Shown: positions 1 through 16,042 of the stretch, in pieces | How positions within the stretch are numbered: position 1 is the first letter of the stretch | Layout of the letters: every line of letters starts with the position of its first letter | IMG/VR virus record: IMGVR_UViG_3300048686_000196 | Coordinates: 1-26,521 of that record | Source: a virus | Length of the DNA: 26,521 bases | Strand: one strand, 5' to 3' | Made by a program: the position numbers and the translations under genes | The notes under the pieces: model-generated | Told to the model about the DNA's origin: nothing | Databases searched by the model: none | Seen by the model: the letters and a program-made list of their open reading frames with translations, nothing else

Positions 1-589
1 AAACCTTACCCCTTGCTCGCCCACCACTTGAATTCCAGGAAACCATCTGACCAACACGAACAGAATCGGCTTTACCCATTGAATCAACCATTTCATCTAA
101 AAATTCTTGTGACTCTCCACTTGTCATAGCTACTTCACTCATTTCTGTATTAACTAAAGAATCTGGTATTGCTGCAAGTCTGCATTTGGCATCTTCTTCT
201 ACTAAGAATGAAAGTAGCTTACAGCCCAATCCATTTTCAGCATCATAATGAAACGAACAATTTCCACACTTGACACCAATTACAGAATCTTCATTTTCAT
301 TAGATGGCTCATAACCAACCCAAACTCCAGAAGATCCTTGATCGAATGGACCAAATTCTTCAACTATTTGAATTAAGGCATCATGATATGCTTTTTCTTC
401 AGAATTTAGCATACTATATAAATCATTCATTTTTGTTACAGACTTTTTATTATTTGCTTCAGCAGCATACAAAGCTCTTTGCTGATTGATTGCTGCCGCC
501 CTTGTTGAATGACAACCATGCGAACCTGATGGCCCTACAACAGCGTACCCGCTGCATCCACCGTAATTTCTTTTTATATCGTATGGCAC
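1..589 (-). CDS. Capsid maturation protease, N-terminal part (XkdF-like), cut by window edge
   Basis: This is the first 196 residues of a head protein that continues past the left edge. It opens with a short domain (about residues 3-44, CSGYAVV then GCHSTRAAA and a YAAE end) that I know from the N-terminus of actinophage prohead protease (XkdF-like) proteins. A four-cysteine region follows (C108, C111, C123, C136) and may bind metal or an Fe-S cluster. A Tudor-like VSWNSSGGRARGKV motif (183-196) comes last. The protease domain itself should lie beyond the edge, so the protease call is inferred from layout and position after the large terminase. The start is GTG at 589: an in-frame TGA lies 15 bases upstream and the conserved N-terminal motif begins right after it. 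There is no Shine-Dalgarno sequence, but TATAAT ends six bases before GTG. No portal gene lies between terL and this gene, which is slightly unusual. Confidence 0.72.
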   Translation of the reverse strand, partial: MPYDIKRNYGGCSGYAVVGPSGSHGCHSTRAAAINQQRALYAAEANNKKSVTKMNDLYSMLNSEEKAYHDALIQIVEEFGPFDQGSSGVWVGYEPSNENEDSVIGVKCGNCSFHYDAENGLGCKLLSFLVEEDAKCRLAAIPDSLVNTEMSEVAMTSGESQEFLDEMVDSMGKADSVRVGQMVSWNSSGGRARGKV

Positions 590-595
590 AAATAT

Positions 596-604
596 ATTAT
601 ATCA
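596..604 (-). promoter_or_regulatory. Extended -10 promoter for the head genes, possibly leaderless
   Basis: The minus strand reads TGATATAAT, an extended -10 element (TGN then TATAAT), just after the terL stop codon. Six bases separate TATAAT from the GTG start at 589, so transcription would begin at or next to the start codon. There is no good -35 box and no ribosome binding site in between, which fits an extended -10, leaderless design. The region is AT-rich, so chance occurrence cannot be excluded. Confidence 0.45.
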
Positions 605-619
605 TCGCTTACAATATTT

Positions 620-2401
620 TTATAACAATCTATAACTTGAAAGATAATCTTTTATTTCTTCTGTCATTTCTGGTTTTTGTTTTTCTTCAATAAGTTTTTT
701 ATTTTGCTCAGATTTTAAAGATGACCATGTATGAATTTCTATTTCACCAACAACTTCTCTTTTAGAGTGTGAAATAGCATTATAAACTGATCCACACATT
801 GCATCTGCCAAGTCCTTTGACTTCTTTCTTGGGTGGTCTACCTTGTTGTTTGGCATGATTCTTAATTCCAACATTTCATCTAATAACAATTCTATATGTG
901 GAGCAGCAACCCGCTCTTCATATATCAACATTGCAAGATCTTCATAATGCTTTTTAGCAACAGAAAGAGTTTCAGAGTTTATTCCAACGCTCTTAAGGTC
1001 ACGCTGAATATCAAAAGACTGCCACCTGTCAAATGTTACTATGCCAAGATTGAATCCGTTTCTTCTAAGACTTATAATCCAATTCTTTACTTCTGATAAA
1101 TCGACTGGACCCTCAACTCTTGGTTCCCACCAGGCTATAGCATCTACTACTATAAATGGAACGACCTGTTCATAGTTATTAAAAGCTTGCATCTTTACCC
1201 ATTTTTCTACATGGCTAATTGCAATTGCACACTTGTCATGTCTTTGTGCAAGGTCTGCGTGAAGAAAATAAATTTTTTCTGGATCTGGTTTAAATGATGG
1301 GTCGAATCTTCTAAACGAATCTAATGGATTACGAATGGATAGACACTTTTCTATTTTTTCTCTTGACTTAAAAAATGAATCACTTGATGTTGTTGGCATA
1401 CAGGCAAATCTCATCAAAGCATCTGTAGGTTCTTTAAAAAACGCAATCTTAAAATCTTCAATAGACCTTGTAGGATTCATTTCCCAAGTTGGTCTTTTTA
1501 GTGCAAAGACTCTTGGATACTTATAGGAAATTATATGATCTTCTTCCCATTCTATATCAAAGGTATTGCCTGGATCATCTTCTGGCAACTCTGGATTTAA
1601 AACAAATTGATGAGTTCTAAATATAGTTTCTTTTTCTGCAATTGCAGAATCGTAAGCTTGCTGGATAAAGTCGTTTTTGTACCTAGGGAATGAAAGAAGA
1701 ACAACTTTACCAAAGTCTGGAAATCGTGAGTCTACTGACCCACGGAAAGCCCTGTAAATATTTTCAGCAGTTTTAGCCTGTTCATTACCAGCAGAACCTT
1801 GGCTAGCAAATCCAGAGATCTCGTCAAGGATAGCTAGGAATAGGTTAAGACCCTCATGGCTTTCTCTTTCAGAGTGACCAGAATAAAGAGTAATAGATTT
1901 ATTAAACGCAACACTATTTACCTTCGGATCATATTTCCCAGCGAACCATGGTGAGTTTTTAATTTTTCTTACAAAATTATCAAAGAATACGTTTTTTGCC
2001 TGCTCAGCATTGATGGCAATATTGATAAGATCTATTGCATCGTCTGGTGGTTTTCCATAGTACCTGGCAGGATCTTTAAGACACATAAGCTTATATATAA
2101 TGTATGCACAAGCAATGGTTGACGTATGATCTTTTCCAGAACCCTTTCCACACTGTAGAATAATTTCTACTTTTGAATACTTCTTGAAGTGTTCTTTTCC
2201 TTTTTCCTCGCCCATTAACGATATTAAATCTTCTTCACGGTATATTTGACTCATACACTCAACAACCGTATATTGATTTTCAGACAGCGGAGGCTGATTT
2301 AAAAAGTCTTTAGAGGTTACGAATGTAACAACGTCAACTGGATTTTCTTCAAATGGATTATCATTAAGAGCTTCAATGATATCTGATAGATCAAGAGTCA
2401 A
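620..2401 (-). CDS. terL: Terminase large subunit
   Basis: This is the ATP-driven DNA packaging motor with its headful or site-cutting nuclease, acting at the prohead portal. At 593 residues it is of usual length for the family. The N-terminal ATPase has a Walker A-like CGKGSGKDH (84-92) and a Walker B LFLAILDE (187-194, D193 and E194). The C-terminal RNase H-fold nuclease shows its acidic residues at D383 (HADLAQRHD), D458 (VTFDRW) and D530/D533 (KSKDLADA). The start is a TTG at 2401 that overlaps the terS stop within TTGACTCTTGA; GAGG lies nine bases upstream of it. The 11-base overlap suggests translational coupling to terS. The call rests on both catalytic domains being visibly complete. 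Confidence 0.95.
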   Translation of the reverse strand: MTLDLSDIIEALNDNPFEENPVDVVTFVTSKDFLNQPPLSENQYTVVECMSQIYREEDLISLMGEEKGKEHFKKYSKVEIILQCGKGSGKDHTSTIACAYIIYKLMCLKDPARYYGKPPDDAIDLINIAINAEQAKNVFFDNFVRKIKNSPWFAGKYDPKVNSVAFNKSITLYSGHSERESHEGLNLFLAILDEISGFASQGSAGNEQAKTAENIYRAFRGSVDSRFPDFGKVVLLSFPRYKNDFIQQAYDSAIAEKETIFRTHQFVLNPELPEDDPGNTFDIEWEEDHIISYKYPRVFALKRPTWEMNPTRSIEDFKIAFFKEPTDALMRFACMPTTSSDSFFKSREKIEKCLSIRNPLDSFRRFDPSFKPDPEKIYFLHADLAQRHDKCAIAISHVEKWVKMQAFNNYEQVVPFIVVDAIAWWEPRVEGPVDLSEVKNWIISLRRNGFNLGIVTFDRWQSFDIQRDLKSVGINSETLSVAKKHYEDLAMLIYEERVAAPHIELLLDEMLELRIMPNNKVDHPRKKSKDLADAMCGSVYNAISHSKREVVGEIEIHTWSSLKSEQNKKLIEEKQKPEMTEEIKDYLSSYRLL

Positions 2402-2921
2402 TTACAATTACCTCATTTGGAGAATCGTTTATCTCAGATAATCTTTTTAAGATTTCATTTCTTACTGACGGATAGTTAATTGCTACATCCTTAAGAATTC
2501 CAACTAGAATTTCATGTTTACGTTCCATCGCAGCCATCTCGTCTGCGATTTCCTTATTGTCTAAAAGACCAGCACGATGAAGCATGTCTAGTCTTTTTGC
2601 TTCAATATCTGTAATAAGTTTAATTGCTGTAGTCTTTGCACTAAGGTTAGATGTTTGATCAGCAGACTCTATAACCTCGTATGCTTTTTTAATAAGTTCA
2701 GAGTAGTGTTTGTCTGCACCAGCCAACGCCTCCCTGGCTCGTGCATGTATTGCTTGATTGCTTGCAGCCATTTCTCGCCAGTCATTGAGCAATGCCATGA
2801 CTCTAGTCCGTGGTATATCAAGCTCTTTGGATATCTGTGACGCATCCAAACCCTTTAAATATTCTGTAGCAACAGCGTTTACTTGATCAAGATGTTTCAC
2901 CAGATCTAATTCTTTTGACAC
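2391..2921 (-). CDS. terS: Terminase small subunit (putative)
   Basis: This 176-residue protein sits directly upstream of terL and overlaps it by 11 bases. Residues about 15-50 form a helix-turn-helix (YLKGLDASQISKELDI, then RTRVMALLNDW), as expected for the DNA-recognition part of small terminase subunits. The rest is predicted to be mainly helical and charged (DIEAKRLDMLHRAGLL, MAAMERKHEILV), consistent with the central oligomerisation domain of TerS rings. The start is GTG at 2921, with AGAGG six to seven bases upstream. Small terminases are poorly conserved, so the name depends on HTH plus position next to terL. The role would be recognising phage DNA and stimulating the TerL ATPase. Confidence 0.8.
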   Translation of the reverse strand: MSKELDLVKHLDQVNAVATEYLKGLDASQISKELDIPRTRVMALLNDWREMAASNQAIHARAREALAGADKHYSELIKKAYEVIESADQTSNLSAKTTAIKLITDIEAKRLDMLHRAGLLDNKEIADEMAAMERKHEILVGILKDVAINYPSVRNEILKRLSEINDSPNEVIVIDS

Positions 2922-3183
2922 GCTTGCCTCTCTTCTTAGGTATTCTTCTTACCCTCTCTGGATAGAATGATCTAAATCCACATCCAATTCCTTTATCTAA
3001 TTCGATGCAGTCTACCCATACAATTCCATTCTTAGGGTTAGTTGTTAGGCTAAGAAACTTGAATTGAGTTCCCCATATGCCTTTAATTTTTATCAAGTCT
3101 CCCTTGACAATTTTTTTACCATCAATAAACATTTCTTCTTCACGAATAAATGGATCTATTGAGCTACACTTTTTCCTTCTCAT
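2887..3183 (-). CDS. Small basic phage protein, DUF7246-like, next to the terminase
   Basis: This 98-residue protein has a beta-rich core (KKIVKGDLIKIKGIWGTQFKF, then NPKNGIVWVDCIEL), a conserved-looking RSFYPERVRRI motif (71-81) and a very basic tail (residues 82-92). It resembles small proteins, labelled DUF7246 as far as I recall, that sit beside terminase genes in many actinophages; their function is unknown. The basic tail suggests nucleic acid contact, but that is inference. It starts at ATG 3183 with AGGTAGGG upstream and is the first gene after the strong promoter at 3220-3248. It overlaps terS by 35 bases. Confidence 0.7.
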   Translation of the reverse strand: MRRKKCSSIDPFIREEEMFIDGKKIVKGDLIKIKGIWGTQFKFLSLTTNPKNGIVWVDCIELDKGIGCGFRSFYPERVRRIPKKRGKRVKRIRSGETS

Positions 3184-3219
3184 TGTCCCTACCTTTCGAT
3201 TTGAAGGAAATTTTATTAT

Positions 3220-3248
3220 ATTGTATCAGTAGATCTTTTTAATGTCAA
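3220..3248 (-). promoter_or_regulatory. Consensus sigma70-type promoter for the packaging genes
   Basis: On the minus strand TTGACA (3248-3243) is followed by exactly 17 bases and then TACAAT (3225-3220), with TG one base before the -10 (TGATACAAT). This is an almost perfect housekeeping promoter with an extended -10. It lies largely inside the end of the DUF3310 gene and fires into the DUF7246-like, terS and terL genes. The expected start point, near 3213, leaves a leader of about 30 bases containing the AGGTAGGG ribosome binding site before ATG 3183. It is the best promoter match I found in the window. Confidence 0.75.
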
Positions 3249-3465
3249 TAGATGCGTTTTTTTCTAATCTATTTATTTCATCATTAATATAAAATATAGC
3301 CTTTTTTAAATCTTCAATTTGCTTAGCATCATCCTTTATTCCTGCTCTCCAAAGGTACTTGATAGCATTACCGACATTAAAATTTCTATGACGAGTAATC
3401 TGTATGCATTCTACGCCAGATGGATCACTGGTGTAGTGTGGTGGATGATTTACCATATCGCTCAT
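3226..3465 (-). CDS. DUF3310 family protein
   Basis: This 79-residue protein shows the DUF3310 signature: NHPPHYTSDPSGVECIQI near the N-terminus, then NVGNAIKYLWRAG (about 31-43) and a helical DLKKAIFYINDEINRL segment. The family is widespread in phages, often among nucleotide or replication genes. A nucleotide kinase label is sometimes given, but there is no Walker A motif here and the biochemical role is not established. The ATG at 3465 shares one base with the stop codon of the 48-residue HTH gene upstream (TAATG), with AGGGG at good distance. Its last codons carry the -35 and spacer of the downstream promoter. Confidence 0.85.
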   Translation of the reverse strand: MSDMVNHPPHYTSDPSGVECIQITRHRNFNVGNAIKYLWRAGIKDDAKQIEDLKKAIFYINDEINRLEKNASIDIKKIY

Positions 3466-3611
3466 TATTTACCCCTTAGTCCAAATTTAATCAAGTATGA
3501 ATATATAGTTTGTGTAGAACAGTTGCATTCTTTTGCAATTTCTTCTGGTGACTTTTTATCATAAACATATCGTTTTGTCAACCACGTCTTTGACTGATAA
3601 AGCTTAGGCAT
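3465..3611 (-). CDS. 48-residue helix-turn-helix protein
   Basis: This short gene fills the gap between the RuvC-like and DUF3310 genes. The product starts MPKLYQSKTWLTKRY and contains SPEEIAKECNCSTQTIYSYL (about residues 21-40), a clear helix-turn-helix, and ends KFGLRGK. Tiny proteins of this WLxxRY...EIAxxCxCSxxTIxxxLxxxGLRG type occur in many actinophages. Their targets are unknown; DNA binding is inferred. Its ATG lies inside the end of the upstream gene (8-base overlap, ATGCCTAA) and its stop shares one base with the next ATG. The tight coupling on both sides supports it as a real gene despite its size. Confidence 0.8.
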   Translation of the reverse strand: MPKLYQSKTWLTKRYVYDKKSPEEIAKECNCSTQTIYSYLIKFGLRGK

Positions 3612-4212
3612 CTTCTACACCGTCTTCAAACATAGAGTTCCAACGATCAGAAACATACCATCCAACTCCTATCGCATCTGCTACATCATCATCACTTACT
3701 TTAACTTTAAAGTGGCTAGCAACAGCATCTATTGTTTTATTTTTTCTGGTTTCTCTTTCTTTACTTTTATACCAAGATCTTGATTTCCCTGGAAATCTTT
3801 TTTCTATTTCAGCTTTTTCATTTTTTGTAAGCAGTCTATTACCAATATAGTTTTGCCATTGCATTGGAGTAATTGATTTTAATATTTTTATTCCAGCTAC
3901 ATGTGCTGAAGATATAATTGCACCCTGTACCAATGACAACTGCATGGCTGTTTTAGGTGAATTACTATATATAGCTGATTCTATTATCATTGCCTCAGCA
4001 TCAATTGTTTTGAAAAATGCAATACATTTTTTAGCTGCATCACCAGCTTTGTAAAATGCATCAGCACCAGTAAATTTTATTTTTCCATATTTAATTAATC
4101 TACCACTCTCAAAATATGAAAATGCCATTGAATTAGTTGAGGCATCAATAGCAAGAATGCGTTGTGGCTTAGTAACACTAATTAAAGTTTTATTGCTGTA
4201 TCTCGTAGTCAA
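3604..4212 (-). CDS. RuvC-like Holliday junction resolvase
   Basis: This 202-residue protein has the RNase H-fold resolvase layout: RILAIDASTNSMAF with D23, AMIIESAI with E78, and a C-terminal DDDVADAIGVG acidic cluster (D174-D176, D179). It should cut four-way or branched DNA intermediates, for example to debranch DNA before packaging. The start is uncertain: the TTG at 4212 gives the longest form, and its AGGAG lies a long 13 bases upstream. No ATG or GTG occurs before the first catalytic strand, so the true start must be near. It overlaps the zinc-finger gene by 23 bases. It is one of two resolvase-type proteins in the window. Confidence 0.82.
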   Translation of the reverse strand: MTTRYSNKTLISVTKPQRILAIDASTNSMAFSYFESGRLIKYGKIKFTGADAFYKAGDAAKKCIAFFKTIDAEAMIIESAIYSNSPKTAMQLSLVQGAIISSAHVAGIKILKSITPMQWQNYIGNRLLTKNEKAEIEKRFPGKSRSWYKSKERETRKNKTIDAVASHFKVKVSDDDVADAIGVGWYVSDRWNSMFEDGVEDA

Positions 4213-4483
4213 AGTAATCTTTCAGCTCCTTAGCAAAAGTATTTATTCTTTTTTTATTAATTTCACACTGATCGCACATGGTGTCATCATTATATATGCT
4301 TAGTGGAGTGCCACATCCTCCAGCACACATCCTTATCTTTCCACGCCTCTTTTTTCTTTTTTCAACATGATATCTTTCAATAATTTTTTCTTTACTTGCT
4401 TCTGAGCGACATTCAATACCACAGTAAATTTGTTTTCCAGTTTTCTTTTCATATTCTTTGTCGCACCATGAGCAATAGTTCAT
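4190..4483 (-). CDS. Small double zinc-finger protein
   Basis: This 97-residue protein has two cysteine clusters. The first is CSWC at 4-7 with CGIEC at 21-25, and the second is CAGGC (53-57) with CDQC (70-73). A strongly basic linker (KRKKRRGKIR, about 42-51) lies between them. The first cluster resembles treble-clef or MYM-like fingers. The likely role is binding nucleic acid or a protein partner; no enzyme motif is seen. ATG 4483 directly follows the stop codon of the Cas4-like gene, so the two are probably translated together. The C-terminal 23 bases overlap the RuvC-like gene. Confidence 0.72.
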   Translation of the reverse strand: MNYCSWCDKEYEKKTGKQIYCGIECRSEASKEKIIERYHVEKRKKRRGKIRMCAGGCGTPLSIYNDDTMCDQCEINKKRINTFAKELKDYFDYEIQQ

Positions 4484-5311
4484 TTACATTTGTCCCTTTT
4501 CATCCTTTCGTCTTGCAATCTTAATCTCACCACTTGGAGCAGATAAGCATGGATCGCGTAACGGACAAGACATACAAATTTTTATAGAATTATTTTTAAA
4601 TGGAACTTCTGGAATTGTTTTATTAGTCCAAGCTAGGCGAACTTCTTTCATCCAGTCAAACAAATATTCTAGAAAATCAACATGGTTCTGATTGATATTT
4701 ACTGGTATAGCAAGTAAGTCATGAGTGTTTTTGTTTTCATATAATATTATGCCCTTTGTCTTTTTATAAATCTTCATATAAATAATAAGTTGCAGAATAT
4801 GATACGAACTTGCTGTATTAGTCTTCTTATGACGCTCAAATGCATCTTGATTACAGGTCTTAATTTCTACCACATAATCAGTATCATCCCACTTTATAAA
4901 TGAATCAACGTAGCCGAAAATGGGTGGATCTTCATATGAGGTAGCAACCTCCTTGCTTATTAAAACTCCAGCATCCTCCATGGCTTTCTGTATTCTTGCA
5001 TGTCTATCTGTACCACTATCCATATTGGTAATAGACTTACCAGCCTGATACTCGTAAAATGTATTACCTTCAAAAGCTAGATACCAGTACCTTGGACATA
5101 TGCCATGATTCCATACGAGTGATGATGGGGCAAATGACTTTTTTGTTTGAAACTTTGGTATGTTATCTTTTCTATAGCCTTCATAGATTGCATCAATAAG
5201 ATTGTTAAACGGACCATTATCTACTTCTTCAATTTTGGGTTCAACATATTCTTCTTCATCTATACTCTCTATAGGTTTATTTAATATCTTTTTTAAGATC
5301 ATATTAGCCAT
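4484..5311 (-). CDS. Cas4/RecB-like PD-(D/E)XK exonuclease
   Basis: This 275-residue nuclease shows the order of a Cas4-type enzyme: first cysteine at C72 (ICPRYW), H104 (DRHARI), D136 (GYVDSF), E149-x-K151 (VEIKT), Q174 (ILQLIIY), then C246, C249 and C255 (CMSCPLRDPC). The four cysteines match the Fe-S cluster of Cas4 and AddB-type nucleases. With RecA and two resolvases nearby, the likely job is resecting DNA ends for recombination. There is no CRISPR array or other cas gene, so a CRISPR adaptation role is unlikely. ATG 5311 overlaps the upstream stop by eight bases (ATGGCTAA). Confidence 0.88.
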   Translation of the reverse strand: MANMILKKILNKPIESIDEEEYVEPKIEEVDNGPFNNLIDAIYEGYRKDNIPKFQTKKSFAPSSLVWNHGICPRYWYLAFEGNTFYEYQAGKSITNMDSGTDRHARIQKAMEDAGVLISKEVATSYEDPPIFGYVDSFIKWDDTDYVVEIKTCNQDAFERHKKTNTASSYHILQLIIYMKIYKKTKGIILYENKNTHDLLAIPVNINQNHVDFLEYLFDWMKEVRLAWTNKTIPEVPFKNNSIKICMSCPLRDPCLSAPSGEIKIARRKDEKGQM

Positions 5312-5624
5312 AATAATTCCTAGTCGTATACTTCAAGGCATCGCACAATCTATCCAAAGCTTCTTTGGCTGAATAGTATATATTCTTCTTCTGTCTCTCA
5401 TCCTTTTTGACATTGGTGTACCATGACGCAAGCATTGCAAACTTAGCAGAATATGACTGTAACTGTACAATAAGCTGTGCTGCTTTTGCTGGTGGTATAT
5501 CTGGATTTGCTATAAGCTTTGCAACCATAACAAGAGACTTTGTTATTTCTTCATCTTGCATGTATTCTGATATATCATTAAAGCCATTGATCTCGTTGAT
5601 AACGTCTACTATATTGTCGCTCAC
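5304..5624 (-). CDS. Conserved phage protein of unknown function
   Basis: This 106-residue, predicted all-helical protein has a central KLIANPDIPPAKAAQLIVQL segment (about 37-56) and a basic, tyrosine-rich end (KNIYYSAKEALDRL, then YTTRNYYG). I have seen similar proteins beside the nuclease and recombination genes of other phages, without known function. It sits between a methyltransferase and the Cas4-like nuclease and overlaps both by a few bases, so a partner role for the nuclease is conceivable but unproven. It starts at GTG 5624 inside the upstream stop (GTGA overlap), with GGAAAGG seven bases upstream. Confidence 0.72.
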   Translation of the reverse strand: MSDNIVDVINEINGFNDISEYMQDEEITKSLVMVAKLIANPDIPPAKAAQLIVQLQSYSAKFAMLASWYTNVKKDERQKKNIYYSAKEALDRLCDALKYTTRNYYG

Positions 5625-6148
5625 TTACTGACCTTTCCCCAAAAATATAAATCGTGATGATCTTTATTTATAGAAAACTCATATTCAGAAAACATTTCAT
5701 TAAGATTAAAATTATCTCTAAAATCTTTTTCATTTACATTTTCATAATAATCCCAATCAAGAGTCAATGGAGAATCTTCTGGAGTGGTGCGAGTTGTACC
5801 ATGTTCTGCTCTGCCATCTGTTGCACAGGTGACAACAACAAACCTATATGCCATACGGTACATATTAGCAAATGTCTGTATCCAGTACGGGTTGTGCTCA
5901 AAACACTCTGTACTTACCGCCACATCGAAAAAGTTTTCTGGATAGTAAATGTCCTGACCGTGGCCCACAACATCAACACCTGGCCCCTCACTAACGTCTA
6001 CTCCCACATAAACATTCGCATTGTAAAAATCTCTAATAGTTCCATTTATATTAAGAGATCCTATTTCTATTACAGAAACATCATTAAAATATTCTGGAAA
6101 CATTTTTTGTATTCTTAAAAAGAAATCTCTTTGTTCAGGATGTGCCAT
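5621..6148 (-). CDS. Class I SAM-dependent methyltransferase
   Basis: This 175-residue enzyme has a compact Rossmann methyltransferase core: SVIEIGSLNINGT (25-37, motif I), YVGVDVSEGPGVDVV (47-61, acidic D51 for SAM ribose) and FFDVAVSTECFEHNPYW (73-89, motif IV and the typical FEH). I see no target-recognition domain and no DPPY or PCQ motif of DNA adenine or cytosine methyltransferases, so the substrate is unknown (small molecule, sugar, protein or nucleic acid). Proteins of this size are common in environmental phages. Its ATG lies inside the end of the resolvase-like gene (14-base overlap). Confidence 0.82.
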   Translation of the reverse strand: MAHPEQRDFFLRIQKMFPEYFNDVSVIEIGSLNINGTIRDFYNANVYVGVDVSEGPGVDVVGHGQDIYYPENFFDVAVSTECFEHNPYWIQTFANMYRMAYRFVVVTCATDGRAEHGTTRTTPEDSPLTLDWDYYENVNEKDFRDNFNLNEMFSEYEFSINKDHHDLYFWGKVSK

Positions 6149-6437
6149 CTTTACTCATTTCTCTTAGATATTCAAACTCGCTCCACTCAATTATAGCAAG
6201 CCTTGTCTTTACCTTGTCTCCAAGGACTATCATTAGAACTGGAGACTTGTTTGGATCTACCCTTAATGTATCAGTAACAATCTTTGCCCAAACATCTTTA
6301 GTTACTGAAAATGATTTAGAGTATTCTTTTACATCTACTATGTATCTATCCAACGAGCCATCTGCCTTAATGATTCCGCGACCACTATTCTTGTGAGGTC
6401 TAGCACCAATACGCTTAAGCTCTGAACGTTCACTCAC
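6135..6437 (-). CDS. PD-(D/E)XK nuclease, Hjc-like resolvase (putative)
   Basis: This 100-residue protein resembles short phage nucleases related to archaeal Hjc. Residues 16-44 contain KNSGRG, then an acidic DGSLDRYIVDVKEYSKSFSV stretch with D35-x-K37 in the place of the ExK catalytic pair, followed by WAKIVTDTL and a VLMIVLGDK strand. The substitution of D for the usual E is tolerated in PD-(D/E)XK enzymes. The likely activity is cutting Holliday junctions or branched DNA; position just after recA supports this. The start is GTG 6437, with AGAAGGG seven bases upstream, and shares one base with the previous stop (TAGTG). Confidence in the fold is moderate. Confidence 0.6.
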   Translation of the reverse strand: MSERSELKRIGARPHKNSGRGIIKADGSLDRYIVDVKEYSKSFSVTKDVWAKIVTDTLRVDPNKSPVLMIVLGDKVKTRLAIIEWSEFEYLREMSKDGTS

Positions 6438-6613
6438 TAATATCCCTTCTCCTTAAAAATACTAACAGTTGAAACATTGTCACATGACTTACACTTCCAT
6501 GTAAGATCAAGTGTTGACTTATAATATCTACAGCTTAATATTGTTTCGCCACACTTTTGGCACAAAAACTTACCATGAATTACTTCATATTTAGATGATG
6601 GCAACAAGTTCAT
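6437..6613 (-). CDS. 58-residue zinc-ribbon protein
   Basis: This small gene bridges recA and the resolvase-like gene. The product starts MNLLPSSKYEVIHGKFLCQ and carries CQKC (18-21) and CKSC (41-44), a four-cysteine zinc ribbon, with a conserved-looking STLDLTWKC core and a KEKGY end. I recall similar KYExxHGKFLCQ...C proteins in the same place in other actinophages. The function is unknown; DNA or protein binding is inferred. The ATG at 6613 lies inside the end of recA (23-base overlap), and the stop overlaps the next GTG by one base (TAGTG). Confidence 0.8.
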   Translation of the reverse strand: MNLLPSSKYEVIHGKFLCQKCGETILSCRYYKSTLDLTWKCKSCDNVSTVSIFKEKGY

Positions 6614-7936: not shown

Positions 7937-7939
7937 TTT

Positions 7940-10900
7940 CTATACCTTTACTTCCTCTAACATTGTTGTTCCATCCTTCATGGTTGCTATTTTCATCTTT
8001 ACAGCCTTTCCTGGCTCACATAGCATATATGCGTTAGCAAATGTACTAGAGAAAGCAATCACTGGATGCAAGTCTCTATTATAGTCTGCTGCTGTAATAT
8101 ATGCTATCTTTTTTCCATTTTTTGTTACATTTTTTCTGAAGCTAAGAATAAAAAACTCATCATTAGAATAGGGAACGCTTTTATAATTCAAGAATCTAAT
8201 TAATGGATTATCTTTGTAATTGTCCATTTGATCTATTGGTATTGCAATAGATATTCTATTTGCAGCAGTCAATAACAAATATGTTTTACCCGTTTCTATT
8301 TTTGTCTCTTGTTCATCAAAGAATCCTACCATAGCTGTCTTATCAAGAAACTCTATTCTAGACCAACCAACAGCACGCTTTATCTTCTTTGCAACAGCAA
8401 GAAATATTTGAGATTTCATATCATCAAAATCTTCAAGGTTTTCTATAAACGCATAGTAATGCGATGGAATAGTTACATTAAACTCTGGAAGATTAAGATA
8501 CTCATAAAGATTAGACCTAATACTTTCTTCATTTCTAGGATGATCTGCAAAGGTTAGTGCTCCAACAGCATCCAGCGCCTCAAGTGCGCGACTGTTAATG
8601 CCACTACCCTTTGTAAATACATGATTCTTAAAATGATCATAAGAGTTAAATGGTCTAGAGGCAAGAATTTTACTAGCTATGCCATCTGATATCCACTTAA
8701 TTGAGGTAAGTCCAAACCTGATAGCCTTTCCCTCTATCTTAAAGTCTGCACCAGACTCATTGACGTGTGGCAGCCTGAGTGAGATGCCCATCCTCTTTGC
8801 TTCAATAAGGTATCCTGTTCTTGCATCCTTATCATTTTCATTCTTAAGAAGAGCAAACATAAACTCTATTGGATAGTGGTATTTGAGCCACGCTGTCCAG
8901 TACGATAGGGTTGAGTAAGCCACAGCATGGGACTTATTAAACGAGTACCCAGCATGGGCCTCAAAATCATGCCACATTTTTTCAGCAGCAGCCCCACCAA
9001 GCGGCCCAGTAGCATTCCTAACGAATAGCTCTTTGAATTGATCAAATTCTTTTGCATCCTTTTTCTTGCCAATAATCTTACGAACCTTATCTGCTTCTGC
9101 CATTGTCATGCCACCAAGCCTTACACAGGCAAGCATAACTTGCTCCTGGTAAAGGATGCATCCATAGGTGTCCTCTGTGAACTCCCTAAGAATATTGTGC
9201 TGATAAGATATAGATTGACGGCCCCTCTTTCTTTCAATATATTCTCTACCAATAGTATTCATAGCACCAGGACGTACTAAAGCATTAGAGGCAACTAACT
9301 CATCAAACTTACTGACACCCATCTTAACAAGAAGATTTGTGTATGGTGTTGCCTCACACTGGAATACTCCCTTAGTAAATCCATCAGATAGCATAGCATA
9401 GACATTTGGATCATCAAGGGGAAGGCTAGAAAGATTTATTGTTTTGTGATGCCTTTCCTTAATTATGTCAAGTACGTCACGGATAACCGTGAGAGTCTTT
9501 AGACCAAGTGCATCAATCTTAATAAGTCCAATATCTGCTGCTTCCTCCATGTCAACTGCAACTACTGGAATTCTTTCCTTGCCACCCGTGGGAAGTCTAG
9601 TTTCCATTGGAGCGTGCTTAAATATTGGATCATTAGATGTAACAATTCCAGCAGCATGGATACCAGTGCCACGGACTCTTCCACGAATCTTTTCTGCATA
9701 CTCAAGAACTTCTGGATACTTCTCTCTAAACCATTTTGTAGTATGGTTATTTGTAAAATCTTGCCATGTATCTACTGACTTTAGAACTCTATTTACATCT
9801 GCTAGTGGTACATGTAGTACACGGGCTACGTCACGAACAACGCCCTTGTCCTTAAATGATAAAAATGTAGCAATAGATGCAACATTCTTATACTCCTTTT
9901 CAAGATACTGCTTTACTTCTTCACGGCGATTATCTTGAATATCAGTATCAATATCTGGAAAGTCATTGCGTTCTGGATTAATAAACCTAAAGAATAGTAG
10001 TCCATACTTAATAGGATCAATATCCGTAATGCCCAAAGAGTAACAAACAAGAGAGCCTGCTGCTGAACCTCTGCCTGGACCAACAAGAATATCGTTTTTC
10101 TTTGCCCATGAAATCATATTATGAACAACAAGAAAGTATGGAGCAAAGTTCTTCTGCTTAATAATATCAAGTTCTTCATTTAATCTATCAACATAGACTT
10201 GATTACTACGCAGGTTGTTAGCATCTAGCCAAGCGAATGCATACTTTCTTAGTTGATCATCTGCATTATCTACCTTGACTGGAAGAAGATTTAGATTTTT
10301 TGGTATATCATATTCTTCAACCATATTTGCTATATCAATAGTATTATTGTAGATACTATCATCAATGACAGTATCTTGCATAGAAGCTCTCATTTCATCA
10401 TAGTCAAGAAGGTGAATATCGAAACTTCTAAAAGACATTTGACGATCTTTTCCATACAAATAATCAAGACGATCCATCATATCTTTATGCTGTAAAGACT
10501 TCTCATAGCTAACGTCTTTTTCTATCTTGGCATGTGTATTTAGAATAAGCATCATTTCCTGGACAACTTTTTGATCCTTAGTGCAATGATGACAGTCTGG
10601 AGTTACTATAGACTTTACACCCATTTCATTGGCAAGCTTATATAACTCAACATTCATTCCAGGTACATTGTGCGGCATCAGTTCAATATAAAAATTATCC
10701 TTACCAAACCTGTCACTAAACCAACGGATATGCTGCTTTGCTGCTGCATACTCATCCATTTCAATAGCCTTATTTATAAGGCCAGACATGCAGGCAGTTG
10801 AAACTATAAGACCGTCACCATACTTGTCTAATACATCAAAGTCAATACGAGGCTTCTTATAAAAGCCTTCTGTCCATCCTATCTCATTTAGTTTATTAAG

Positions 10901-11218
10901 GTTCTGAAGACCCTGATTATTCTGAGCAAGGATAATAATATGGTTGTAGACAAGATCAAGTGGTGTAGTTCTTTCCGCTTTATCTCTTTTATCAAAGCGA
11001 TCAAAAGTAATATATGCCTCCATCCCAAGGATGGGCTTTACTCCATTATCCTTACATGCACGATAAAATCTACGATGGGCAGATAAAGATCCATGATCTG
11101 TACACGCCAAAGCTGGCATGTTTAGGCTGCCTGCCCGTGCAGCATACTCTTCTGGTGTCGCCACACCGTCCATCAAAGATCCCATATCAGTATGGACGTG
11201 AAGTGGTGCGTAATTCAA
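7940..11218 (-). CDS. dnaE: DNA polymerase III alpha subunit (DnaE, C family)
   Basis: This is the phage replicative polymerase. It has an N-terminal PHP domain (APLHVHTDMGSLMDG, CTDHGSL, PDCHHCTKD, FDIHLLDY), which keeps its histidines and could proofread. The palm follows with GPGRGSAAGSLV and FPDIDTDI, which hold two catalytic aspartates, and IKIDALGLKTL, which holds the third. NKSHAVAYS and a C-terminal domain come after. At about 1092 residues it is close to bacterial DnaE (1160). I chose the TTG at 11218, four bases after GGAG and directly before the PHP strand. A TTG at 11254 would add 12 residues (SPTTPT...), but it lies in the loop of a strong hairpin with no free ribosome site. No clamp or clamp loader is seen here; the host clamp may be used. 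Confidence 0.96.
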   Translation of the reverse strand: MNYAPLHVHTDMGSLMDGVATPEEYAARAGSLNMPALACTDHGSLSAHRRFYRACKDNGVKPILGMEAYITFDRFDKRDKAERTTPLDLVYNHIIILAQNNQGLQNLNKLNEIGWTEGFYKKPRIDFDVLDKYGDGLIVSTACMSGLINKAIEMDEYAAAKQHIRWFSDRFGKDNFYIELMPHNVPGMNVELYKLANEMGVKSIVTPDCHHCTKDQKVVQEMMLILNTHAKIEKDVSYEKSLQHKDMMDRLDYLYGKDRQMSFRSFDIHLLDYDEMRASMQDTVIDDSIYNNTIDIANMVEEYDIPKNLNLLPVKVDNADDQLRKYAFAWLDANNLRSNQVYVDRLNEELDIIKQKNFAPYFLVVHNMISWAKKNDILVGPGRGSAAGSLVCYSLGITDIDPIKYGLLFFRFINPERNDFPDIDTDIQDNRREEVKQYLEKEYKNVASIATFLSFKDKGVVRDVARVLHVPLADVNRVLKSVDTWQDFTNNHTTKWFREKYPEVLEYAEKIRGRVRGTGIHAAGIVTSNDPIFKHAPMETRLPTGGKERIPVVAVDMEEAADIGLIKIDALGLKTLTVIRDVLDIIKERHHKTINLSSLPLDDPNVYAMLSDGFTKGVFQCEATPYTNLLVKMGVSKFDELVASNALVRPGAMNTIGREYIERKRGRQSISYQHNILREFTEDTYGCILYQEQVMLACVRLGGMTMAEADKVRKIIGKKKDAKEFDQFKELFVRNATGPLGGAAAEKMWHDFEAHAGYSFNKSHAVAYSTLSYWTAWLKYHYPIEFMFALLKNENDKDARTGYLIEAKRMGISLRLPHVNESGADFKIEGKAIRFGLTSIKWISDGIASKILASRPFNSYDHFKNHVFTKGSGINSRALEALDAVGALTFADHPRNEESIRSNLYEYLNLPEFNVTIPSHYYAFIENLEDFDDMKSQIFLAVAKKIKRAVGWSRIEFLDKTAMVGFFDEQETKIETGKTYLLLTAANRISIAIPIDQMDNYKDNPLIRFLNYKSVPYSNDEFFILSFRKNVTKNGKKIAYITAADYNRDLHPVIAFSSTFANAYMLCEPGKAVKMKIATMKDGTTMLEEVKV

Positions 11219-11240
11219 GATTCTCCAATCAATAGTGGGG

Positions 11241-11277
11241 GTGGTGGGGGACAACGTGAGATTTTATCCCCCACCAC
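11241..11277 (-). other. GC-rich 11-bp perfect hairpin in front of dnaE
   Basis: On the minus strand GTGGTGGGGGA (11277-11267) pairs perfectly with TCCCCCACCAC (11251-11241) around a 15-base loop. It lies between the stop codon of the SSB gene at 11284 and the preferred dnaE start at 11218. It stands out in AT-rich DNA. No U-run follows the stem, so a standard intrinsic terminator is unlikely. It could stabilise or process the mRNA, attenuate transcription, or hide the alternative TTG at 11254 and the G-rich sequence upstream of it. The plus strand G-runs (11236-11250) could also form a G-quadruplex. Confidence 0.7.
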
Positions 11278-11283
11278 GCTTAT

Positions 11284-11934
11284 TTACCAATCAATATTTG
11301 TTGAGGTTGAAGGGTTATCATAACCCAAATAGAATGCTTCCTGCTCTGAATATGGAACGTTTCTTACAGCGTTCTCAAGCGGAAATGCCTCATAATCTGA
11401 CCAGTCAAATGGCTCAGTATCAGTTGGCCCAGGCATTAGAACATAGTTTGTCTCTGTGCCCTTTCCATTACGCTTTAGCTTCCACTGCATATTTGTAATA
11501 CCATCAGACTCAATAGCATATTCACGAATTGTGCTAAAGGTGGGTGACTTTGCTACGCCCATACTCCAGACAGCGATATAGGGATCTTCCATTCCATCAT
11601 CAACAAGAACATTGATGTAAAACCTTAGTCTTCCTCCCCAACCCGCCTTGGGATCTTTACGATGCATTTCCTCTGCCCAATCCCTTCCTTCACTCTCCAT
11701 GGTACATACGGCCTTACGCCTGTAATCCTTGGGATTGGTATGCTCACGCACGACAATTGCTGCTCCACGATCTGCATCATAGTATTTTGAATCTTCATCA
11801 AGCTCGTTAGCAAAACGAACCTTGACACTTTGACCGTCCTCTAGCTTAAGCCAGCGTACTCGCGGTCCCGATGAAGGCTTAGATGACTTCTCCATGCTTT
11901 CATTAATATTCTTTAGACCCTTATAAATAGACAT
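11284..11934 (-). CDS. Single-stranded DNA-binding protein, gp32-like (putative)
   Basis: This 216-residue protein matches, as I recall them, phage SSB-type proteins found between primase and polymerase. Key segments are RVRWLKLEDGQSVKVRF (25-41), VREHTNPKDYRRKAVCTMESEG, GGRLRFYINVLVDDG and a C-terminal NVPYSEQEAFYLGYDN. The beta-rich core suits an OB-type fold; the family is not the bacterial SSB type. It would coat single-stranded DNA at the fork and in recombination with RecA. Position among dnaG, dnaE and recA supports this. Only one cysteine remains, so no zinc site is visible. ATG 11934 has a strong AGGAG that includes the primase stop codon (TTAGGAG). Confidence 0.62.
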   Translation of the reverse strand: MSIYKGLKNINESMEKSSKPSSGPRVRWLKLEDGQSVKVRFANELDEDSKYYDADRGAAIVVREHTNPKDYRRKAVCTMESEGRDWAEEMHRKDPKAGWGGRLRFYINVLVDDGMEDPYIAVWSMGVAKSPTFSTIREYAIESDGITNMQWKLKRNGKGTETNYVLMPGPTDTEPFDWSDYEAFPLENAVRNVPYSEQEAFYLGYDNPSTSTNIDW

Positions 11935-11942
11935 ATTTTCTC

Positions 11943-12899
11943 CTAATTAATAATGTATTCAATAATGTTGTCAAAACGATATATAAGTGATTGTATTTGT
12001 TCTTCATTCATATCTGATATATCTTTGTATTCCTCTGGAATATTGCCTATAGTAACAATGCTGCCCAACGACTCTTGCATCTTTCTTGCCATTGATCGCC
12101 CTGCCTCATCATTATCTGGCAATAGTATTATACTATTAAAATATTGCTTTAGCAAGTCTATTTGCCTATTTGATACTGTTGCTCCAAGAGTTGCTACAGC
12201 AGACCTACCAGCTTGTTCTATTCTTATGGCATCAAAAGATGACTCAGTTACAAATATCTGATTTGAAATTTTGTTTCTATTGATATTAAATAGAGTCTTG
12301 CTTTTCGGAAGCCCTGTTGAATTTTTAAAAACCTTTCCTTCAATAGATCTTCCAACGAATCCCAGGCATATATTGTCTGGAGAATATACTGGAATAGTAA
12401 CCATCTTTTGTTTAATAGAGTAACCAATGCAATACTTTATTGCACTATCTTTATTTATTCCTCGCATCTTTAAATACTGTACCGCTTCTGTACCAGAAGC
12501 TGACATTAGATTCTGATGTAGCGATTTAATTAATTCTGTATCAAATTCTTCAAACTCTTTGGGCTTTGATATCATTTTACTAATATCTGAAAGAATATCT
12601 GAGTCTGCACGTTTTGATTCAATTAAACGAACAGCCTCAAAAAATGTTCTTCCTGTACAATGCATAACTAGTTCTGTAAAAGATTTAGTTTGCTGACAAC
12701 CAAAGCAATGTAGGCGTCCAGTATTTTTGTCTACCTCTGCTGCTGGAGTTCTAAAGTTAGAATGTATGGGACAGAATATTAAATAGTCAGCATCTAGTTC
12801 AAGTTCTATATTGATGCCACATGATTGCAGGACTCGTCTGACTTGCTCTGGCGAGTAGTATTCTCTATTATTCGATTCTTGTCTACTCCTGAAATCCAC
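11943..12899 (-). CDS. dnaG: DnaG-type primase
   Basis: This 318-residue primase has an N-terminal zinc-binding domain with C43-x2-H46 (CPIH) and C65-x2-C68 (CFGC), then the Toprim core with IFVTESSFDAIR (E219) and IILLPDNDEAG (D262, D264). It makes RNA primers for the phage fork together with the DnaB-type helicase. It is much shorter than bacterial DnaG (about 580) and lacks a clear helicase-binding C-terminal domain, which is common in phages. The start is GTG 12899 with AAAGG four bases upstream; no other start codon precedes the zinc domain. This creates an unusual 94-base overlap with the upstream gene. Confidence 0.92.
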   Translation of the reverse strand: MDFRSRQESNNREYYSPEQVRRVLQSCGINIELELDADYLIFCPIHSNFRTPAAEVDKNTGRLHCFGCQQTKSFTELVMHCTGRTFFEAVRLIESKRADSDILSDISKMISKPKEFEEFDTELIKSLHQNLMSASGTEAVQYLKMRGINKDSAIKYCIGYSIKQKMVTIPVYSPDNICLGFVGRSIEGKVFKNSTGLPKSKTLFNINRNKISNQIFVTESSFDAIRIEQAGRSAVATLGATVSNRQIDLLKQYFNSIILLPDNDEAGRSMARKMQESLGSIVTIGNIPEEYKDISDMNEEQIQSLIYRFDNIIEYIIN

Positions 12900-13135
12900 T
12901 GCGCCTTTTTCCTTCCAACGAATACTCCATAAATAGATAGTTCAAAATCAAATGATTTACCATTATACGATAACGTAAAGTCGGGGTCAATATCATATCT
13001 AATAACATAACCCTCATATCTCATTGCATTTTTAAGCAGTTCAATATATTGAAGCTTAATTCTAGGAATAATAGAATCATCAGCAATTTCTCCATTTAAA
13101 TAAAATCTTTTTAGATTTTTATGTGAAATTGTCAT
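12806..13135 (-). CDS. Conserved phage protein between helicase and primase genes
   Basis: This 109-residue protein begins MTISHKNLKRFYLNGEI, continues with a helix (KLQYIELLKNAMRYEGYVIRY) and beta-rich DIDPDFTLSYNGKSFDFELSIYGVFVGRKKAQWI. The final 31 residues (IIENTTRQSKSDES...) overlap the primase gene in another frame and look less constrained. I recall similar NLKRFYLNG proteins at this place in other phages; the function is unknown. The ATG at 13135 has no Shine-Dalgarno sequence, but TATAAT ends six bases upstream, suggesting a leaderless transcript. A replication accessory role is inferred from position only. Confidence 0.7.
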   Translation of the reverse strand: MTISHKNLKRFYLNGEIADDSIIPRIKLQYIELLKNAMRYEGYVIRYDIDPDFTLSYNGKSFDFELSIYGVFVGRKKAQWISGVDKNRIIENTTRQSKSDESCNHVASI

Positions 13136-13141
13136 GATTTA

Positions 13142-13147
13142 ATTATA
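13142..13147 (-). promoter_or_regulatory. -10 box placed for a leaderless transcript of the 13135 gene
   Basis: The minus strand reads TAGTATAATTAAATCATG: a perfect TATAAT with six bases to the ATG at 13135. No ribosome binding site fits in between, and no convincing -35 is present. This gap, just after the helicase gene, is one of the few intergenic spaces in the window. The sequence suits a promoter starting the primase, SSB and polymerase transcript at the start codon. Confidence 0.4.
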
Positions 13148-13155
13148 CTAGTTTT

Positions 13156-14379
13156 TTACATATCATCTTCAAAATCTTTAGTGATAAATCTTCCATGGTC
13201 AAAATCTGTCATAACAAGAAATTCTCCTAGTGCTCCATTACGATTCTTTCTCATGGCAGCCTCAATAACGTCGCTATTTGCTGCACGACCAAGAGCTAGT
13301 ACCCAATCAGCATCATAAGAAAGTTGCTTTGACCATGCAACCTGTCCAAGAGTTGGAACACTATGCATGTCACTTGCATCATCTGGAGTTGCAGACGCAA
13401 TAGCAATAATTGGAACTTGCTCACTAATTGCAAGAATCTTTAGTTCACGACTAATATTCTTAATCTTTACAACTTCATTATCAGTACGATTATTAGACTG
13501 CATAAGCTGAATGTAATCAACAAACACAATGTCTGGCTTGTATTGATCTATCTTTCCACGCAGTACCGCTGGAGTTACATCACCAATACCATCATTTGAT
13601 ATGATCTGAAAAGATGGCTTATTCTCAAAATACCTCTTGCCCCATCTTTCAAACTCTTCAGTATCTATATCACCAGAACTCATCTTACGATGAGAGAATC
13701 TACCTTCGCCCATAATCGTATATGCACGATTACGAACCTCCCCTTCACTCATCTCAAGTGAAACAAAAAGTGGCTTTCTATTATTTTTCCAAGCCTGTAC
13801 TGCGAGGAAAAGAGCCAACCAACTTTTTCCAATTGCTGGATATGCTAGAAGGATTCCGAAGTTTCCTGGTGAAATTCCAGATGGGAGGTAGTCGTCAAAT
13901 CCCTTAAGGCCAGTCTTAATTCCAAAGACCCCACGCTCATTAAGTTCACGAACGTGATTAAAGTATGCTATAGCATCATCTACATCTACAACATCAAGGT
14001 CACGAATATCTGCTGTACTTTTCTTTAGATCAGCAGTCTGACTAATAATAGTATTTAGTGCCTCAACTGGACGATTATTCTGTAGTTCATTTGCACTACT
14101 CTTTAGAATAGATTTCAATGACTCATTAAGATAATGCTCTCTTAGTTCATCTAGGTGATGCTTAGTTGAGCCAACATCGTCTAGTGGGGTGAAGTCACGA
14201 AACTTCTCTACTACAAGATGAGTTGGAGGAACGGTACCATTTTGTGAGGAATAGTCCTTAACAAAGTTCCATATATCTTTATGTGTCTTAAAGAGGCTAT
14301 CTACGTTAGCCTGCATTAATACATGAACCTGCTTGTCACTTAAAACAGCACTTATAACTTTATCTTCTATGTTAGCCAT
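13156..14379 (-). CDS. dnaB: Replicative DNA helicase, DnaB type
   Basis: This 407-residue RecA-fold ring helicase has an N-terminal helical domain (1-115), a linker (about 120-150) and an ATPase domain opening with GIKTGLKGFDDYLPSGISPG. Its Walker A-like motif is AYPAIGKS (179-186), followed by SLEMS with E209 and Walker B IVFVDYIQLM (284-293, D288). Near the end a Q-rich QVAWSKQLSYDADWVLAL and MRKNRNGALG resemble motifs H3 and H4 and the arginine finger region. It unwinds DNA at the fork and recruits the primase. ATG 14379 overlaps the previous stop by eight bases (ATGGCTAA). Confidence 0.94.
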   Translation of the reverse strand: MANIEDKVISAVLSDKQVHVLMQANVDSLFKTHKDIWNFVKDYSSQNGTVPPTHLVVEKFRDFTPLDDVGSTKHHLDELREHYLNESLKSILKSSANELQNNRPVEALNTIISQTADLKKSTADIRDLDVVDVDDAIAYFNHVRELNERGVFGIKTGLKGFDDYLPSGISPGNFGILLAYPAIGKSWLALFLAVQAWKNNRKPLFVSLEMSEGEVRNRAYTIMGEGRFSHRKMSSGDIDTEEFERWGKRYFENKPSFQIISNDGIGDVTPAVLRGKIDQYKPDIVFVDYIQLMQSNNRTDNEVVKIKNISRELKILAISEQVPIIAIASATPDDASDMHSVPTLGQVAWSKQLSYDADWVLALGRAANSDVIEAAMRKNRNGALGEFLVMTDFDHGRFITKDFEDDM

Positions 14380-14686
14380 TTAACCACGCCCTTGCACGAC
14401 TACGATTAATCTTTCTCTCCTGATCATCACGTTCCTTATCCTTCCTGGCCTGATATAGCTTTTCCATGTTTAAAGTAAACCATGACCAATCATGACCCCT
14501 GTCCTTTACATGGAAGTACCAGTCAACAGCTTTTTGACACTCATCAAATCCAAACGATTCAACAAGATCTCTGGCTGCCCACTTAGCAGTATTTTTATTT
14601 ATTAGCGGTTTGTTACCGTATACAGATGAATATTTTAATGAGTAATAGCTTATAAGATCATTGCCTAACCTAATTAGGTCACTCAT
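14372..14686 (-). CDS. Small protein before the helicase, possible helicase loader
   Basis: This 104-residue protein is predicted to be mostly helical, with AKWAARDLVESFGFDECQKAVDWYFH (about 35-60), a tryptophan-rich GHDWSWFTLNMEKLYQ turn and a highly charged tail (KDKERDDQERKINRSRARAW). Proteins of this shape are often encoded just upstream of phage DnaB helicases and may load them, but I see no diagnostic motif, so the loader role is inference from position and size. It overlaps dnaB by eight bases and the preceding gene by a few bases, so it is probably made together with the helicase. Confidence 0.6.
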   Translation of the reverse strand: MSDLIRLGNDLISYYSLKYSSVYGNKPLINKNTAKWAARDLVESFGFDECQKAVDWYFHVKDRGHDWSWFTLNMEKLYQARKDKERDDQERKINRSRARAWLNG

Positions 14687-14882
14687 TCATCTCACTCTTT
14701 GCTGCCTCAATCTTGTTAATAACTTTTGTTTCAACAAAATTATATACGCGATCCATGGCGGCGTCAACATTCTCTCCATCACGAACAAAATCTGTACAGC
14801 CAAGATCTACTCGTAAACTTTGAAAGTTTCCTATATTTAATGTGTAACCTAAATTTACACTTACTGTTGTCTTATCTGACAT
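14679..14882 (-). CDS. Conserved 67-residue phage protein
   Basis: This small protein reads MSDKTTVSVNLGYTLNIGN, then FQSLRVDLGCTDFVRDGE and a helical DAAMDRVYNFVETKVINKIE end. The alternating hydrophobic strands followed by a helix suggest a compact alpha/beta fold. I recall similar TTVSVxLGxTxNxGxFxSxRVDxG proteins in replication regions of other phages; the function is unknown. I chose ATG 14882 because a strong AGGAG stands five bases upstream. An upstream start at 14930 would add 16 residues that merely overlap the previous gene. It overlaps the next gene by eight bases. Confidence 0.75.
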   Translation of the reverse strand: MSDKTTVSVNLGYTLNIGNFQSLRVDLGCTDFVRDGENVDAAMDRVYNFVETKVINKIEAAKSEMNE

Positions 14883-14889
14883 TTTTCTC

Positions 14890-15426
14890 CTAATATGTTT
14901 CTTCAGCCCACACTGGGATGAAATCACCATCTTTGGTCCTGGTATACAGGATTAGTGCATCACCCATTCTAGCACGCAGCTCCTGTTCAGTCAAGACCTT
15001 GTTGGAAATCTTACCATCTTTTCTTGGCCTTCCCGTGTGTACTCCAGAAAGAAACTCTCTAATAGAGAAAACGTCCTCTTCTGAATAGTAAGATTTTCTT
15101 TTAAATGATCGTTCACCATTTGGTAAAATTCCAACTGGTGGTTTTATGTTACCACTATCAACGTGTCTTCTCAACTGTGTAGCTGTTCTATTTAAAAGTC
15201 TAGCTGTATTGTGTACCGTATATGCTCTTTTTTTATGTTTTTTAAAATCAGAATATAGCATTGTTTGTTCTTTTTGATCTACTATATTAAAAAGATATAC
15301 TATATTTTGACCACGATTAATTGATAATGTTTTGACTAATTTATTATTTATAAAAAATAAATTAGGGCTTGGCTTTATAGGCCGTTCCTGTTTTTTATCA
15401 AATCCATTTCCATCTGATGGAGCCAT
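14890..15426 (-). CDS. MerR-like helix-turn-helix DNA-binding protein
   Basis: This 178-residue protein has an N-terminal part with NLFFINNKLVKTLSINRGQN and a YSDFKKHKKRAY linker. A MerR-type winged helix follows at about 69-125 (YTVHNTARLLNRTATQLRRHVDSG, then YYSEEDVFSIREFL), then a basic GRPRKDG hook (about 132-138). The C-terminus is a small domain ending PVWAEETY. It may regulate phage promoters or mark the replication origin; neither is shown. ATG 15426 has AAGG eight bases upstream, which supports it despite a 52-base overlap with the zinc-ribbon gene. It is the second gene of the putative early operon that starts at 15566. Confidence 0.72.
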   Translation of the reverse strand: MAPSDGNGFDKKQERPIKPSPNLFFINNKLVKTLSINRGQNIVYLFNIVDQKEQTMLYSDFKKHKKRAYTVHNTARLLNRTATQLRRHVDSGNIKPPVGILPNGERSFKRKSYYSEEDVFSIREFLSGVHTGRPRKDGKISNKVLTEQELRARMGDALILYTRTKDGDFIPVWAEETY

Positions 15427-15566
15427 TGAACAGACCTTCCAAACTTAGAGGGTGGATGAAAAATCTTTCTCATGCCACACATAATACAATATATTTCTAA
15501 ATGATCAATAGATAATTCAACCCTATCAACAAAAACTCTTCCTGTACATTTCTTACACTTTATCAT
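15375..15566 (-). CDS. 63-residue zinc-ribbon protein
   Basis: The product has two cysteine pairs, CKKC (4-7) and CIMC (27-30), separated by a beta hairpin (GRVFVDRVELSIDHLEIY). This is a rubredoxin-like zinc ribbon, followed by a basic, tryptophan-containing tail (KFGRSVQWLHQME). It is similar in plan to small zinc ribbons near regulatory genes in other actinophages. The function is unknown; nucleic acid or RNA polymerase contact is only a guess. It starts at ATG 15566 without a Shine-Dalgarno sequence, just after a TATAAT box, and is the first gene of the replication block. Confidence 0.72.
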   Translation of the reverse strand: MIKCKKCTGRVFVDRVELSIDHLEIYCIMCGMRKIFHPPSKFGRSVQWLHQMEMDLIKNRNGL

Positions 15567-15575
15567 TGTTTAGGT

Positions 15576-15581
15576 ATTATA
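15576..15581 (-). promoter_or_regulatory. -10 box before the replication gene block
   Basis: TATAAT lies directly after the stop codon of the last tail gene, and nine bases separate it from ATG 15566. Transcription would start about three bases before the ATG, giving a leaderless or nearly leaderless message. There is no ribosome site between. The position is sensible, as it separates the tail genes from the regulatory and replication genes. No clear -35 box is present. Confidence 0.42.
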
Positions 15582-16033: not shown

Positions 16034-16042
16034 ATTATATCA
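16034..16042 (-). promoter_or_regulatory. Possible extended -10 element before the last tail gene
   Basis: The minus strand reads TGATATAAT, the same nine bases as upstream of the head gene at 589, followed by AAGGAG and ATG 16018. Here the predicted transcription start falls at the ribosome site itself, which is tight. The run is also very AT-rich, so this may be chance. Confidence 0.3.

Follow-up and report, generated by a model that had tools for sequence, protein, structure and literature searches.

The window, the whole stretch of DNA analysed here, is a viral contig of 26.5 kb (26,521 nucleotides) with 35% GC, and its genes lie on the minus strand. Three of these genes, with starts at 589 (GTG), 13135 (ATG) and 15566 (ATG), had been predicted from a perfect TATAAT close to the start codon to yield leaderless transcripts. 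The elements were confirmed on the minus strand, ending 6, 6 and 9 nt before the respective starts. The features at these sites and at one neighboring gene are the following.

2-589, minus strand: first gene after the terminase gene, GTG start at 589, running off the window
596-601, minus strand: TATAAT -10 element in the extended form TGATATAAT, 6 nt upstream of GTG 589
12806-13135, minus strand: 109-aa protein of unknown function (phrog_17515) that opens the primase/SSB-like/Pol III alpha block
13142-13147, minus strand: TATAAT -10 element in the interval between the helicase stop and ATG 13135, gap 6 nt, without TGn and without a -35 element
15375-15566, minus strand: 63-aa Cys-rich (CxxC) protein, phrog_12850, unknown function
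15576-15581, minus strand: TATAAT -10 element 9 nt upstream of ATG 15566; a transcript leader of a few nt is possible
15584-16018, minus strand: 144-aa protein whose orthologs divide into leaderless-type and leadered forms
16034-16039, minus strand: extended -10 element TGATATAAT of gene 15584-16018, with a 15-nt gap that holds an AAGGAG Shine-Dalgarno (SD) site

In-frame stop codons, which end 12 nt before the start at 589 and 3 nt before each of those at 13135 and 15566, force these starts, since none is possible further upstream. No SD sequence was found in the upstream stretches inspected for the three genes, an absence that is partly forced at gaps of 5-7 nt, where TATAAT itself fills that stretch. 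A consensus scan found no match to a -35 element at any of the three sites, which counts against a leaderless promoter. The proposal that all three starts open functional blocks was borne out for 13135, which opens the primase/SSB-like/Pol III alpha genes, but not for 589 as a head gene. The full-length 589 protein, found in a near-identical contig, has 380 aa, carries a Hva1_TUDOR domain and belongs to phrog_2859. The supposed regulator/replication block at 15566 turned out to begin with the small Cys-rich protein, upstream of the helicase genes.

Host and phage kinship

The closest isolates were Streptomyces phages of the Stanwilliamsviridae (Evy, Samisti12, Gilson and Wakanda), with tblastn identities of ~52% for Pol III alpha, ~54% for the terminase and 41% for the helicase. 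Of 26 large relatives, 13 had WhiB (PF02467) over the cut-off, among them a 57 kb contig with a 100% identical helicase. WhiB proteins are restricted to Actinobacteria and the phages that infect them (PMC10202952), and the actinobacterial host assumed in the original prediction is supported by these genes together with the kinship to Streptomyces phages. The window thus appears to be a fragment of an AT-rich actinobacterial phage that is distantly related to the Stanwilliamsviridae. A helicase profile search of genome contigs for a prophage or host contig returned only relatives at or below about 33% identity. Sigma70_r4 was not over the cut-off in 14 large relatives, which suggests that a host sigma-A-type factor is used.

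Conservation of TATAAT before the starts at 13135 and 589

Five proteins served as queries to gather relatives from IMG/VR: the helicase, the terminase, a prohead protease, the 13135 protein and the 589 protein in its full-length version. The collection scans covered the best 80 matches each, and more distant relatives may differ. Orthologs of each window gene were placed by tblastn, and the region before the start was then read. A first gene-by-gene survey found, among the matches listed, that most window genes had no leaderless-type start in their orthologs; such starts were seen for 13135 (36/36), 15584-16018 (32/50), 589 (8/14), 15566 (5/24) and 2391-2921 (5/25), with stray cases for 14679-14930 (1/49) and 16825-18207 (2/42).

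At 13135, TATAAT stood 5, 6 or 7 nt from the start in all 59 distinct orthologs among the matches listed, which are distinct at an 85% cut-off, not fully independent, and were read with gaps of 3-12 nt permitted. In the same 59, again among the matches listed, the start codon was ATG in 53, GTG in 6 and TTG in none, and base -1 was always a pyrimidine (T 46, C 13). The window copy itself has a gap of 6 nt, C at -1 and A at +1. The spacing is conserved in orthologs with as little as 37% amino acid identity. The standard deviation of the distance from TATAAT to the start was 0.6 nt, as compared to 4.7 nt for the distance from TATAAT to the GxI motif; the element therefore moves with the start codon and not with the coding body. 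Many of these orthologs have an in-frame stop inside or adjoining TATAAT, as well as a conserved HHKPIKRF stretch 3-5 codons after the start, so that no alternative start codon is available to them.

At 589, TATAAT was found at a gap of 6 nt (21) or 5 nt (1) in 22 of the 47 distinct orthologs among the matches listed, and all 22 had T or C at -1. Six further orthologs among these matches carried TATAAT further upstream, each with an SD site (6/6), and the remainder had no TATAAT. In the orthologs of the leaderless type, TATAAT follows a TGn extension. The terminase stop lies 30 nt upstream of the start. The window copy has T at -1 and G at +1.

These data bear on the possibility that both genes are translated by termination and re-initiation on read-through mRNAs, with TATAAT acting as a minor internal promoter or as an AT-rich, unstructured spacer that aids re-initiation. 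The start at 13135 is only 20 nt past the helicase stop, a spacing that is even shorter in many relatives. Its orthologs in isolated Streptomyces and Rhodococcus phages of matching gene order begin at or near the helicase stop, as expected of coupled starts, and no TATAAT was found before the ortholog start in those phages. However, an AT-rich spacer has no need of an exact TATAAT at 5-7 nt, of an invariant pyrimidine at -1 or of the avoidance of TTG. At 589, moreover, the same -10 element and spacing recur with a TGn extension, yet here the preceding stop codon is more distant. We consider re-initiation improbable.

Several further observations were made around 13135. The gene overlaps the primase gene by 94 nt in a different frame (window 12806-12899), and the annotation of Streptomyces phages shows a comparable overlap (L163, L164, L168). 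In Streptomyces phage Riptide (L165), positions 1501-1818 gave a tblastn match to the 13135 ortholog that is unannotated in the record, and several further Streptomyces phages have only the primase and helicase annotated under the matching region. A fold search with the predicted structure of the 13135 protein (pLDDT 84) found no PDB match at E<=0.001. Within the gene, TTGACC-17-TATAAT at 12962-12990 on the minus strand (11/12 consensus) lies 62 nt ahead of position 12899, where the primase starts, and is a possible leadered promoter for this gene. Two similar sequences lie elsewhere on the minus strand: TTGACG-17-TATAAT at 14739-14767 (11/12 consensus), inside gene 14679-14930 and upstream of gene 14372-14686, and TTGACA-17-TACAAT at 3220-3248, with TG before the -10, which resembles an ordinary promoter and leaves space for a leader ahead of the start at 3183.

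Divergent forms at 15566 and 15584-16018

The start at 15566 behaved differently. Only 11 of its 57 distinct orthologs among the matches listed were of the leaderless type, with the start assignment uncertain in some. The window copy, with a gap of 9 nt and A at -1, lies outside the 5-7 nt spacing and the initiator bases of that type. Because of this low retention, the longer gap and the A at -1, a leader of a few bases on the 15566 transcript would be as likely as none. The distance from TATAAT to the start, whose conservation was the proposed check on the original prediction, is thus invariant within a narrow range at 13135, partly kept at 589 and mostly lost at 15566.

Gene 15584-16018 divides into two forms. 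Among the matches listed, 35 of 62 orthologs were of the leaderless type, while 19 had TATAAT with a leader; in the latter, the element was 14-17 nt away and an SD site was present in 18 of 19. The window copy is of the leadered form, at a junction where many relatives have the leaderless one. From this dichotomy, also seen at 589, it follows that the promoter is often held while its distance to the start switches.

Signature of leaderless-type starts across gene families

The TATAAT word is not enriched across the window (41 found, 44 expected), and conservation at 15566 is poor, as would be the case if AT-rich phage DNA simply placed TATAAT near some starts by chance. Nevertheless, TATAAT lies 5-9 nt before 3 of the 29 starts, with P(>=3)=0.0014 when the upstream regions were dinucleotide-shuffled 5000 times, and in the window plus four large relatives it occurred 31 times at that distance, while its anagrams averaged 4.8. 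Together with the strict conservation at 13135, these results make chance an extremely improbable explanation. Conservation rejects it at 13135 and 589; at 15566, it may still apply.

General tests were made over gene families, with genes taken from a simple ORF picker. A pyrimidine at -1 was found in 33 of 39 leaderless-type families versus 31 of 120 SD-led families (p=1e-10) and 179 of 440 families with other starts (p=1e-7), in a family-level comparison that reduces the dependence among orthologs without removing it. Bacterial transcription usually initiates at a purine (+1) that is preceded by a pyrimidine (-1). Since leaderless-type starts show this pattern, their start codon looks like a transcription start. 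TTG was used in 2 of 127 leaderless-type starts versus 28 of 417 SD-type starts. The pooled leaderless-type sequences had an extended -10, in which the two TG positions held T in 61% and G in 72%, and a conserved -35 was not found in this set. A permissive scan gave 7-12 leaderless-type candidates per large relative, block-opening genes included. One relative has an FtsZ gene (PF00091 plus PF12327; G024:C1:16580-17515, L341) with a leaderless-type start.

The prohead protease gene (G001:C1:3360-4763, L329; orthologs L426-L505) had TATAAT 8-10 nt upstream in 21 of 23 distinct orthologs among the matches listed; in many cases A occupies -3 and a TAACA...AAAAAGG stretch recurs upstream. This TATAAT looks like a distinct late promoter with a leader of ~3 nt.

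Such spacing raises the question of whether the promoters are real but produce a very short leader of 1-5 nt, with transcription not starting at the start codon. The gap of 9 nt at 15566, the prohead protease arrangement and the gap-9 class as a whole, with A at -3 in 89%, all fit this reading. Against it, gaps of 5-7 nt put a start 6-7 nt past the -10 directly onto the start codon, where the pyrimidine/purine signature is found. We regard a general short leader as unlikely, though with an appreciable chance of being correct.

Proposed mechanism and its regulatory meaning

Taken together, the data make it highly probable that these are host-type promoters of the -10-only or extended -10 kind, whose transcripts would begin on the start codon or 1-3 nt ahead of it. 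This reading of the original prediction gained strongly at 13135 and 589 from the conserved spacing, the pyrimidine at -1, the absence of TTG at 13135 and the SD sites of leadered forms, and stays weak at 15566. TATAAT before 13135 and 589 would be the -10 element of a promoter of the host sigma-A type that needs no -35, at 589 as an extended -10 (TGnTATAAT). RNA polymerase would start at the purine of the ATG or GTG, 6-7 nt past the -10, to give a leaderless mRNA, and the ribosome would initiate directly on the 5' terminal start codon. The downstream genes on that mRNA are mostly SD-led. The 15566 promoter is likely similar in type, and its transcript would have a leader of 0-5 nt.

Whether leaderless starts serve as a regulatory class is a separate matter. 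A change in the host initiation machinery might lead to selective translation of blocks, as has been put forward for the Thermus phage phiYS40, whose middle and late mRNAs are leaderless and in which IF2 goes up and IF3 down (Sevostyanova 2007, as summarised in PMC3594737). The presence of block-opening genes among the several candidates of each large relative would fit such a class. However, orthologs at 589, 15566 and 15584 switch between leaderless and SD-led forms and therefore do not make up a fixed class; such switching at homologous junctions argues against a strict need for leaderlessness at most blocks. Mycobacteria, moreover, translate leaderless mRNA robustly with no change of initiation machinery (PMC4633059). 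We give the regulatory class little credence, and the suggestion in the original prediction that leaderless starts set the time at which blocks are translated gained no support from any of the present results. A narrower proposal, which we consider doubtful, is that in this uncultured actinophage clade an invariably leaderless gene opens the replication block and is selected for a regulatory advantage, while other openers flip around a fixed promoter. If true, one example of such an advantage would be translation that persists under altered host initiation.

Comparison with known systems

TA-like signals ~12 bp upstream mark leaderless genes, which make up >20% of genes in Actinobacteria (PMC3160421), and leaderless translation in mycobacteria is initiated by ATG or GTG only (PMC4633059). 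In Deinococcus, a -10 motif adjoining the ORF drives leaderless expression (PMC12340547). The starts described here resemble actinobacterial leaderless genes (PMC3160421, PMC4633059) in having a -10 element 5-7 nt before ATG or GTG, no SD and an avoidance of TTG; they differ in the perfect TATAAT, as opposed to TANNNT, and in belonging to an uncultured AT-rich phage. A freshwater-phage paper (PMC6802176) does not mention leaderless genes.

Among phages, the Stanwilliamsviridae share the order helicase, small protein, primase, SSB and Pol III alpha, but their 13135 ortholog begins at the helicase stop without TATAAT. PhiYS40, as far as PMC3594737 summarises it, is likewise a phage with a set of leaderless transcripts, established there in an experimental study tied to initiation-factor changes and predicted here from sequence alone. 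The window and its relatives offer a concrete sequence-only case for following viral leaderless initiation through evolution: one junction was never seen to lose the leaderless form, whereas others keep the promoter but convert to an SD-led start. They also help to locate promoters and gene starts in phages whose actinobacterial hosts are seldom cultured; such starts could be misplaced by gene callers that look for an SD site.

Leaderless SigA-like promoters have been predicted in the cluster O mycobacteriophages, Corndog and its relatives (PMC4351075). Those phages are unrelated to the present ones, and their promoters were picked by sigma-70 scoring that included the -35, whereas here the -10 stands alone or extended and many relatives were used to measure how well the spacing is conserved. 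Because Actinobacteria are known to have leaderless starts and mycobacteriophages are predicted to have them, the present phage starts belong to a known kind of gene start. What appears to be new is the exceptionless conservation at one gene of the replication block among the relatives examined, together with the switching at other junctions.
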